Assembly: GCA_024707075.1 (NCBI GenBank)
Contig: JANQAK010000003.1
Span: forward strand, 1,240,001-1,304,000
DNA from: Afipia sp.
GTDB lineage: Bacteria; Pseudomonadota; Alphaproteobacteria; Rhizobiales; Xanthobacteraceae
DNA: 64,000 nucleotides
Direction: 5' to 3'
Shown here: positions 52,296 to 55,085 of the stretch, piece after piece
Numbering within the stretch: position 1 is the first letter of the stretch
How the letters are laid out: each line of letters begins with the position of its first letter
Program-made: the position numbers and the translations under genes
Notes under the pieces: generated by a model
Database searches by the model: none
Seen by the model: the letters and a program-made list of their open reading frames with translations, nothing else
What the model was told of the DNA's origin: nothing

Positions 52296-52387
52296 GCGGA
52301 GTGGACCATAGCTGCGGGGATGGAGCAATAACATGCGCGTGACAGAAATCACTCGCGCGTTACGCCTGCGGCGATTATGACTTGGCC

Positions 52388-53989
52388 ATGTCAGACTACG
52401 ATGCACTCATTATCGGCGCGGGCCACAACGGCCTGACCTGTGCGACCTATCTCGCGATGGGCGGGCTGCGCGTGAAAGTGGTCGATCGCCGCAAGGTGGT
52501 CGGCGGCGCGGCGGTGACGGAGGAGTTTCATCCCGGCTTCCGCAATTCGGTGGCGGCCTACACCGTCAGCCTGCTCAATCCGAAGGTCATCGCGGATCTG
52601 CAACTGCATCGTCATGGCCTGCGCGTCGTCGAGCGCCGCGCGCAGAACTTCCTGCCTGCGCCGGACGGGCGCTATCTGCTGACCGGCGAAGGCCGCACCC
52701 ATCAGTCGATCGCGAAACTCAGCGAACGCGATGCGATGCGGATCGACGATTTCAACCGCGAACTGGAAACCATCGCCGACGTGCTGCGCGCCTTCGTGCT
52801 GCGCGCACCGCCGGATGTGGTCGAGGGCCTCGGTATTCATGCGATCCGCGAAGCCTTCAATGCGCTCGGCAGCGCGAACATCCTGCGCGGCCTCTCGCTG
52901 GAGAACCAGCGCATGCTGCTCGACCTGTTCACCCGCTCGGCGGGCGACATGCTCGAGGACCGTTTCGAGAGCGATCTGGTCAAGGCGCTGTTCGGCTTCG
53001 ACGCCATCGTCGGCAACTATGCCAGCCCCTACGCCGCTGGGTCCGCCTACGTGATGCTGCACCACGCCTTTGGCGAGGTGAACGGCCGCAAGGGCCTGTG
53101 GGGCCACGCCATCGGCGGCATGGGAGCGATCACCCAGGCGATGGCGGCAGCGGCCCGCGCGGCGGGCGCGGAGATCGAGACCAACAACGGCGTCCGCGAG
53201 GTGATCGTCGAACGCGACCGCGCCGTGGGTGTCATCCTCGACAATGGGGAGACGATCCGCGCCGGCTATGTCGCCTCCAGCGTCAATCCGAAGCTGCTTT
53301 ATACCCGGCTGGTCCCGGCCGATGCGCTGCCGAAGCCGTTCCTTGACCGCATCACGAACTGGCGCAACGGCTCCGGCACTTTCCGCATGAACGTCGCGCT
53401 GTCGGCGCTGCCGTCATTCACGGCCCTGCCGGGGACCGGCGACCACCTCACCGCCGGCATCATTCTCGCGCCGAGCCTCGGCTACATGGACCGCGCCTGG
53501 CTCGACGCCCGGCAGCAGGGCTGGAGCCGCGAGCCGGTGATCGAGGTCCTGATCCCGTCCACGCTGGACGACTCGCTGGCCCCCTCGGGGATGCACGTCG
53601 CCAGCCTGTTCTGCCAGCACGTCGCGCCGCAATTGCCGGACGGCCGGTCATGGGACGACCATCGCGACGAGGTCGCCGACCTGATGATCGCGACGGTGAA
53701 CCGCTACGCCCCCGGATTTGCCGCCAGCGTCATCGCCCGGCAGGTGCTGTCGCCGCTCGATCTGGAGCGCGACTTTGGCCTGCTCGGCGGCGACATTTTT
53801 CACGGCGCGCTGTCGCTCAACCAGCTCTTTTCCGCCCGGCCGATGCTCGGCCATGCCGGCTATCGCGGGCCGCTAAAGGGACTTTATCACTGCGGCTCAG
53901 GGGCGCATCCAGGCGGCGGCGTCACCGGCGCGCCGGGGCACAATGCGGCGCAGGTTATCCTCAAGGACCACCACGGATTATTCGCTTGA
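52388..53989 (+). CDS. Phytoene-desaturase-like FAD oxidoreductase (PYROXD2 type)
   Basis: A 533-residue NAD(P)/FAD-dependent oxidoreductase. The N-terminal Rossmann motif DALIIGAGHNGLTCATYLA is at residue 4, followed by VVDRRKVVGGAAVTEEFHPGF. The C-terminal FAD contact GLYHCGSGAHPGGGVTGAPGHNAA is near residue 498. The order and GHNGL motif match the PYROXD2/CrtI-like family rather than a true carotenoid desaturase with neighbours. Substrate unknown. I start at ATG 52388 rather than at TTG 52382. Its stop is followed within 30 bases by the DnaA-box array. Confidence 0.87.
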   Translation: MSDYDALIIGAGHNGLTCATYLAMGGLRVKVVDRRKVVGGAAVTEEFHPGFRNSVAAYTVSLLNPKVIADLQLHRHGLRVVERRAQNFLPAPDGRYLLTGEGRTHQSIAKLSERDAMRIDDFNRELETIADVLRAFVLRAPPDVVEGLGIHAIREAFNALGSANILRGLSLENQRMLLDLFTRSAGDMLEDRFESDLVKALFGFDAIVGNYASPYAAGSAYVMLHHAFGEVNGRKGLWGHAIGGMGAITQAMAAAARAAGAEIETNNGVREVIVERDRAVGVILDNGETIRAGYVASSVNPKLLYTRLVPADALPKPFLDRITNWRNGSGTFRMNVALSALPSFTALPGTGDHLTAGIILAPSLGYMDRAWLDARQQGWSREPVIEVLIPSTLDDSLAPSGMHVASLFCQHVAPQLPDGRSWDDHRDEVADLMIATVNRYAPGFAASVIARQVLSPLDLERDFGLLGGDIFHGALSLNQLFSARPMLGHAGYRGPLKGLYHCGSGAHPGGGVTGAPGHNAAQVILKDHHGLFA

Positions 53990-54015
53990 AGGACAGCGAG
54001 CGCCTGTTGAAAGGC

Positions 54016-54149
54016 TGTGGATAACCCTGTGAATAAGTTGTGGATTCCTGCCCCGTTAAAGTTTTACCAAGGTGTGGAAAACCATGGTTAAGAAACTGTG
54101 AAAAACCCGGGTATGTTCCACCCGCAAACTGTGGACAGACTGTGGGAAA
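54016..54149. promoter_or_regulatory. Array of DnaA-box-like sites upstream of prmA
   Basis: Seven TGTG sites in one orientation start at 54016, 54028, 54039, 54073, 54097, 54130 and 54141. The first (TGTGGATAA) is a perfect DnaA box in reverse complement. Those at 54028, 54073 and 54097 also fit TTWTNCACA; the other three are near matches. Steps of 12, 11, 34, 24, 33 and 11 bases are close to whole helical turns. The gap is otherwise gene-free and ends at the prmA ATG. Confidence 0.65.
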
Positions 54150-55085
54150 ATGGACGATGCAATCAACGATTCCAGCCATTTGGACCTTCCCGTGAACTCA
54201 CAGCCCGCCACCGCCGCAACGCAGGCGACCTTCGCCATCGGCGATGAACACACTGCCAGCCGCATTGTGGATACCATCACCGAGAGCTATCCGAGCCACG
54301 ATCTGGCGATCGCCGCCTTCGAGGGGCCGGGCGGCCGCTGGGACATCACCATGCACTTCGCGGAGCCACCGGACCGCGACGTCATCCACGCGCTGGTGAC
54401 GGAAACCGCGGGCGAGGCTGCCGCGAAGTCCATCGTCTTCAGCACCGTCGAAACCAAGGACTGGGTGAAGGCCAGCCTCGCCGATCTCGTACCGGTGAGC
54501 GCCGGGCGATACGTCGTCCACGGCAGCCACGACCGCGAGCGGGTCCCGCCCAACAAGATCGGCATCGAGATCGAGGCGGCGCTGGCGTTCGGCACCGGCC
54601 ACCACGGCACCACGCGCGGCTGCCTCCTGTTGCTCGATCGGGTCCTGAACCAGCGCACGCCCAAGCGCATACTCGATCTCGGCTCCGGCACTGGCGTGCT
54701 CGCCATCGCCGCCGCCAGATCGCTGCGTCGGCGCGTGCTGGCGAGCGACATCGATCCCCGCTCCGTGGTGGTGGCGCGCGAGAACGCCAAGCTCAATGGC
54801 GCAGGAAATCTGGTGGAAGCGATCTGCGCAACCGGGTTTCAGTCGCCGCGCTTTGCCGCCAACGGGCCGTTCGGGCTGGTGCTGGCGAATATCCTCGCCA
54901 ACCCGCTGCGGCAGTTGGCGCCCGCACTGGCGGCGCATCTGGCGCCGAATGCCTTCGTCATTCTGTCAGGGTTGCTGCCGCATCAGGCCAACAGCGTGGT
55001 CGCGGCCTATCGGGGCGCAGGGCTGAAACTGGTCAAGCAGATCCAGATCGAAGGCTGGAGCAGTCTTTTGATGCAAAGGCGATAA
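54150..55085 (+). CDS. prmA: Ribosomal protein L11 methyltransferase
   Basis: A 311-residue PrmA that trimethylates lysines and the N-terminus of ribosomal protein L11. The C-terminal SAM domain has GIEIEAALAFGTGHHGTTRGCL near residue 137, motif I ILDLGSGTGVLAIAAARSL near residue 172, ASDIDPRSVVVARENA near residue 193 and VLANILANPL near residue 247, all PrmA signatures. The N-terminal 90 residues form the substrate-recognition domain. The ATG at 54150 abuts the last DnaA-box-like site and lacks a clear ribosome site; a GTG at 54192 is an alternative. Confidence 0.92.
   Translation: MDDAINDSSHLDLPVNSQPATAATQATFAIGDEHTASRIVDTITESYPSHDLAIAAFEGPGGRWDITMHFAEPPDRDVIHALVTETAGEAAAKSIVFSTVETKDWVKASLADLVPVSAGRYVVHGSHDRERVPPNKIGIEIEAALAFGTGHHGTTRGCLLLLDRVLNQRTPKRILDLGSGTGVLAIAAARSLRRRVLASDIDPRSVVVARENAKLNGAGNLVEAICATGFQSPRFAANGPFGLVLANILANPLRQLAPALAAHLAPNAFVILSGLLPHQANSVVAAYRGAGLKLVKQIQIEGWSSLLMQRR

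Follow-up and report, generated by a model that had tools for sequence, protein, structure and literature searches.

A phased, one-directional row of DnaA-box-like sites upstream of prmA in Afipia and related genera: a possible DnaA assembly site outside the origin

The prmA locus and its row of sites

The window, that is, the whole 64-kb stretch of DNA analysed, lies on contig C6 of a genome of 5.3 Mb in seven contigs. Two genes on its forward strand, fad and prmA, enclose a row of short sites that all point the same way. The TGTGGATAA direction of the whole array is on the + strand, and the DnaA boxes are read on the - strand. The features are as follows.

52382..53989, + strand: fad, FAD-dependent oxidoreductase of the amine-oxidase type (PF01593, E=1.8e-15)
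54005..54149, + strand: whole phased array with 13 register positions at steps of 11 or 12 bp
54005..54013, - strand: weak in-register unit CTTTCAACA, 6 of 9 bases matching TTATCCACA; precedes the seven sites below
54016..54024, - strand: perfect DnaA box TTATCCACA, the sole perfect copy; its nine bases are invariant in 11 aligned sequences
54028..54036, - strand: DnaA box TTATTCACA, after a 3-bp spacer from the box at 54016..54024
54039..54047, - strand: box-like site GAATCCACA, after a 2-bp spacer from the box at 54028..54036
54073..54081, - strand: DnaA box TTTTCCACA, 34 bp (3 units) beyond the site at 54039
54097..54105, - strand: DnaA box TTTTTCACA, a TTWTNCACA match
54130..54138, - strand: box-like site CTGTCCACA at a register position
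54141..54149, - strand: box-like site TTTCCCACA, directly before the first ATG of the prmA reading frame
54150..55085, + strand: prmA, ribosomal protein L11 methyltransferase (PF06325, E=1e-52)

An earlier note on this DNA had described seven TGTG-type sites in one direction. They start at 54016, 54028, 54039, 54073, 54097, 54130 and 54141, all on the + strand, and a recount of the spacings returned the same values of 12, 11, 34, 24, 33 and 11. The four TTWTNCACA sites that it had placed on the reverse strand were all found there, at 54016-54105. The window contains no other copy, the expected number in 64 kb is 1.12, and 2 of 100 shuffles reached four copies anywhere. The one perfect box of the note is the copy at 54016-54024. 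The note had also described the spacing as close to whole turns of the helix. Relaxed DNA has a helical repeat of 10.5 bp. A register is indeed kept, at about 11.35 bp, but the 10.5-bp register of B-DNA is absent, 34 bp being 3.24 turns.

Compared with TTATCCACA, the 13 register positions agree at 9, 8, 8, 7, 7, 7, 7, 6, 4, 4, 4, 4 and 2 of nine bases. Eight positions therefore resemble a DnaA box at 6-9 of 9 bases, while the remaining five (54051, 54062, 54085, 54108 and 54119), which were placed by the 11/12-bp rule, match at 2-4 of 9; this is about chance level and counts against reading the array as DnaA sites. Two general features of a DnaA array were found, namely TTWTNCACA 9-mers (four exact, including the perfect one) and spacers of 2-3 bp (the first three boxes being 3 and 2 bp apart). 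With a matrix trained on non-Afipia relatives alone, the phased-chain score was 77.1 for 54003-54152, and the runner-up place on either strand of the window reached 14.4. A terminator-like hairpin was seen inside the array at 54108-54124 on the - strand (one found, 0.4 expected) and is probably a chance occurrence.

The start codon of prmA (54150-54200) is in doubt, since the alignments with many relatives begin only at about residue 14-27. A GTG further inside prmA fits, by eye, the starts of the relatives. Since the start is doubtful, the array may end in the leader or in the beginning of the coding sequence.

Direction, register and spread among relatives

The closest PrmA relatives are mostly from Afipia, followed by Bradyrhizobium, Bradyrhizobiaceae and Tardiphaga. 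A 441-bp query matched 21 of 41 genomes (E of 0.001 or lower), including 19 of the 25 of the genus of the window, to which G001-G024 belong. The prmA region was scored in 18 of these 25 genomes; of the others, six gave no DNA match to the query and G020 gave a short one. Alignment of the prmA upstream region, which the earlier note had named as a check on conservation, showed the array kept in the window and its ten best relatives. The spacings of 12, 11, 34 and about 24 bp are kept in these 11 sequences, with the TGTG core lost at some single units.

For the statistics, 103 prmA upstream regions were collected: an Afipia set of 19 (18 genomes of the genus plus L047) and 84 others, two of which are from other families. 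Duplicate genomes and L020-L024 (short matches) were left out before counting; the same species is possibly present twice among L047, L053-L067 and L084-L103. TGTGNAW sites in the 103 regions run 175 one way and 6 the other, against a background of 0.14 per 700 bp and strand. The bias is seen in the Afipia set (60 on +, 1 on -) as well as in the 84 other regions (115 on +, 5 on -). Distances between + sites gave a period of 11.4 bp in Afipia (R=0.94, 84 pairs; R=0.60 at 10.5 bp) and of 11.3 bp elsewhere (R=0.78, 99 pairs; R=0.25 at 10.5 bp), pairs not being independent since the loci are related. None of 1000 jittered non-Afipia position sets reached the observed R, their maximum being 0.37. 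In-register positions between the strong sites lean to the box consensus, both in the other relatives (103 positions) and in Afipia (36 positions). The Afipia positions fit it less completely, with G at the fourth box base in only 25%.

A triple-site pattern gave 31 matches in 17 of 80 family genomes, 15 of them, in 8 genomes, at most 0.6 kb upstream of prmA. The register was checked for 30 of the 31 matches, and matches within one array overlap. Both spacings were within 1.2 bp of the register in 10 of 15 triples at prmA and in 0 of 15 elsewhere. Three of the five remaining prmA triples miss the 1.2-bp limit by 0.1 and two by more.

Array scores were compared with a background maximum of 16.4, which an Afipia-trained matrix gave on 320 pieces of one genome, each 1400 bp long. 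Whole 12-kb stretches reach 22.3 with the non-Afipia matrix, so that loci at 17-23 are marginal. All 19 regions of the Afipia set are above background; with a matrix trained without Afipia, 18 score above 25 and L014 scores 19.7, and their reverse complements do not exceed 12.1. Among the family loci L084-L110, 23 of 27 are above 16.4, comprising 19 of 20 with a PrmA at least 58% identical and 4 of 7 below 55%; 17 of 27 are above 25 (16 of 20 and 1 of 7, respectively). The named relatives L053-L067 gave 14 of 15 above 16.4 and 12 of 15 above 25, the exception having just 90 bp of upstream sequence. Neither of two outsiders (L068-L069) is above 16.4 or 25. Among loci from other families of the order (the best 28 of 57 matched genomes, three with less than 500 bp), one is above 16.4 (L235, a marginal 17.6 from two sites) and none above 25. 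Forty more distant family loci (L169-L208), scanned up to 700 bp upstream of prmA so that arrays farther out would be missed, gave 11 above 16.4 and 8 above 25. In 29 of the 40 no array was detected within that distance, so that even inside the family its presence is not general. This counts against the DnaA-site reading.

A stricter pattern of two boxes had matches in 18 of 297 genomes from the order. Apart from the locus of the window, none of its 20 loci shows prmA, and the sample's 10 further family genomes gave no match. In one genus of another family, five loci (L025-L029, in G210, G232, G304, G252 and G159) carry a pair of DnaA boxes with a 2-bp spacer. A short response-regulator-like reading frame was seen by eye beside the pair in at least three of them (L027, L028 and L029). 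This pair is perhaps a conserved DnaA target in that genus.

The constant neighbour of the array is prmA. The upstream neighbour is fad in Afipia, Bradyrhizobium and others, and the array begins close behind fad in many loci; about 300 bp separate the two in L054, L057 and L065. An association with fad rather than with prmA was considered and rejected, as the array is also present at loci without a fad match in the stretch analysed, clearly in L110 (49.9) and marginally in L105, L108 and L109 (20.4-22.8). By eye, L169, L188 and L196 carry the array behind a different upstream sequence. In Bradyrhizobium and others, reading frames lie between the array and prmA, and in several relatives the array is 0.5-1.4 kb from prmA. 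An intervening frame in L091, and also in L060 and L065, looked by eye like a Flp pilin. Because frames intervene before prmA and loci lacking fad still carry the array, it looks like a separate element staying near prmA, not simply its promoter.

Chromosome position and the origin question

The earlier note had offered a chromosomal origin as one reading, which the clustering of DnaA boxes would fit. This reading has virtually no chance of being right. In complete relatives, the parS sites, the GC-skew switch (in one genome) and a separate box cluster all lie about 1.1 Mb away. The distance from parS to the array is 1.06-1.23 Mb in G013, G014 and G016, with parS clusters at 1.58, 3.17 and 3.31 Mb and arrays at 2.67, 2.11 and 2.08 Mb, respectively. 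In the genome of the window, parS is on contig C5 and the array on C6. The GC-skew check proposed in the note placed the switch of G014 near 3.16 Mb and its array at 2.11 Mb; in 22 sampled stretches the skew is mostly negative over 1.2-3.15 Mb and positive from 3.17 Mb on to 0.98 Mb. Likewise, the GC skew of the window has no switch at the array (54 kb).

Clusters of 3-5 boxes in mixed orientation were found about 4-7 kb from parS in G013, G000, G014 and G016. In G013 the cluster has rho on one side and Kinase-PPPase (PF03618) on the other, and MnmE and CoaE are not far off. This is the origin neighbourhood of Caulobacter, and prmA does not have it. This origin-like cluster is not a phased chain (score 14.8). 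A two-site phased pair, L142 (G013:1589596-1589654, score 23.4), was observed 3 kb from oriC in the same genome.

In six array-bearing single-contig genomes the array lies at 0.44-0.60 of the replichore: 0.48 in G013, 0.48 in G014, 0.60 in G016, 0.52 in G059 (weak array), 0.44 in G359 and 0.55 in G377, as calculated from parS and prmA coordinates with some genome sizes rounded. In six single-contig genomes without a detected array prmA lies at 0.10-0.65, and because of this wide span the mid-replichore position is only suggestive. Transcription of prmA is head-on to the fork in 11 of 12 single-contig genomes (G385, without parS, and G354, with an ambiguous parS, being left out); it is seen with and without arrays and hence is uninformative.

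Candidate readers of the array and its proposed function

The word content of the array points to DnaA. The top unseeded strand-specific k-mers of the 84 non-Afipia upstream regions, counted against pieces of one genome (G014), were TGTGGA, GTGGATA, AGCCTGTG and GTGGATAA, which are words of the DnaA-box complement. At box positions 8 and 9, columns left free by the search pattern, A is present in 73% and 64% of 45 distinct Afipia sites, in 49% and 36% of 96 distinct non-Afipia sites (where G is equally common at position 9) and in 19% and 24% of 93 background sites. Support for an array of the DnaA-box type comes from the 9-mer, the spacers of 2-3 bp, the conservation in relatives and the single direction. 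On the other side, a genome-wide comparison with the reversed pattern in five genomes showed no excess of TTATNCACA, and the array keeps prmA as its neighbour, which is not required of a pure sink; both observations count against the DnaA-site reading. The repeat also shows preferred flanks, C before and C after, that extend past the DnaA 9-mer, and the true oriC has unphased boxes. Both would suit a protein other than DnaA that polymerises along DNA and reads the 11.35-bp register. We consider such a reader improbable: the repeat has the DnaA 9-mer as its core and the spacer preferred by E. coli DnaA, and DnaA domain IV of three family genomes retains the recognition motifs VVRPRQ and GGRDHTTVLHA. 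Further proteins with PF08299 (DnaA domain IV) were observed besides full-length DnaA in G000, G013, G014, G016, G377 and G333. The extra matches of G000 are at C6:378865-379065 and C6:794770-794964, and in the four Afipia genomes among these the open frames of such proteins have only 130-209 aa. They could in principle be additional binders of the array.

A decayed, functionless 11/12-bp tandem repeat would have inherited the register from the origin of the repeat. The units are degenerate and direct, and gain or loss of whole units would preserve the register. The invariance of the perfect box across 11 sequences, the register held at one locus across genera and the 0 of 15 phased triples elsewhere make this minisatellite a poor candidate. 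The standard deviations of the pair distances (1.25 at 1 unit, 0.49 at 8, 1.99 at 9, 0.43 at 10 and 1.95 at 12) rest on 4-15 pairs each and do not decide the question. The position of the array on the prmA strand with a single direction would also fit an RNA leader or attenuator of prmA, which is very unlikely: the folding of 53990-54200 is no better than that of shuffles (z=+0.95), a comparison of 53700-54400 with Rfam gave no hit at E up to 1, and the array persists at loci where other frames, in part on the opposite strand, come between it and prmA. The note had further suggested a DnaA-controlled promoter of prmA. Such a region, responding to DnaA and controlling prmA or a transcript entering it, would couple L11 methylation or the operon to the replication cycle. 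In its favour, each of the 11 aligned sequences has the array upstream of prmA, in the window it runs right up to the first ATG, and it stays at prmA in the loci without a fad match; several of the double boxes bound by E. coli DnaA are also upstream of genes (PMC11317965). Against it, the array is kept where frames and 0.5-1.4 kb intervene before prmA, and a scan limited to the sigma-70 type found no promoter in 53850-54350. We regard such control of prmA as unlikely. Co-regulation by CtrA was also considered: TTAA-N7 half-sites were seen by eye in Afipia, but the candidate was rejected with the full TTAA-N7-TTAA in 2 of 103 upstream regions.

With the origin excluded and the prmA promoter weakened, titration or another function in DnaA activity is the best remaining reading. 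The array probably gathers the replication-starting protein DnaA, and we give about even chances to its being a DnaA assembly site outside the origin that withdraws DnaA from oriC. DnaA would load on the strong boxes first, and the oligomer would then spread head-to-tail across the weaker units. A head-to-tail DnaA oligomer would need steps of 11 or 12 bp, such as those seen here, and a sink or inactivator of DnaA is the best reading. DnaA would be withdrawn from oriC either by titration or, as at datA, by ATP hydrolysis stimulated within the oligomer, and passage of the fork would double the quantity removed. Transcription of prmA would be affected at most secondarily. Titration, hydrolysis and reactivation appear indistinguishable from sequence here. 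More tentatively, and with less confidence than in assembly as such, we propose a mid-replichore DnaA-control locus of this alphaproteobacterial family, in which a head-to-tail duplex filament with a protomer pitch of 11.35 bp might act as a sink or inactivator without IHF.

The spacing has precedents in E. coli. DnaA there is found in vivo mainly on box pairs 2 or 3 bp apart, one extra bp in the spacer causes a large decrease, and the bound regions are mostly double boxes (PMC11317965). These share the 2-3 bp spacer with the prmA array but are pairs, not long arrays. The left and right low-affinity arrays of E. coli oriC also have 2-bp spacers on one helix face (PMC4451416); unlike the prmA array, they have four sites each, lie inside oriC and have high-affinity flanks. 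datA is, like the prmA array, a non-coding DnaA-box cluster away from oriC, and it works via head-to-tail ATP-DnaA on same-direction boxes (PMC5742627). Its essential boxes all have one direction, as do those of the prmA array by sequence. Minimal datA has three boxes and a required IHF site, whereas the prmA array is a longer in-register row. An IHF site of the E. coli-type consensus was found near the array in 1 of 103 loci and in 5 of 340 background pieces. The missing consensus site counts against a datA-like reading, since datA needs IHF. In the DnaA-reactivating sequences of E. coli, DARS1 and DARS2, a core of three boxes at fixed spacing releases ADP from DnaA. DARS1 and DARS2 are non-coding box sites with a conserved relative distance from oriC (PMC5742627, PMC5010248), to which the mid-replichore position of the prmA array in six single-contig genomes is a likeness. 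The DARS core of three boxes, and the IHF and Fis sites that DARS2 also has (PMC5742627), were not seen at the array. Box clusters able to repress untimely initiation resemble it in being box clusters, but they are close to oriC, whereas the array is phased and about 1.1 Mb off in complete relatives.

E. coli, Bacillus and Streptomyces all have known sites outside the origin at which DnaA is held or switched (PMC4585315). In a literature search, with most subscription papers beyond its reach, no such site was found for alphaproteobacteria. The array was not described in titles or the beginnings of abstracts, where the term datA was confounded with "data".

The array may help to control the timing of chromosome copying, and in Bradyrhizobium and other tractable genera it is a single, precisely placed locus that could be deleted. 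The 11.35-bp register of the array is sequence evidence on a possible packing of DnaA protomers along duplex DNA, which to our knowledge has otherwise been studied mainly in E. coli. If the proposed filament is true, its protomer pitch would be readable from comparative sequence alone. If the reader is not DnaA, an unknown DNA-polymerising protein would read the array.
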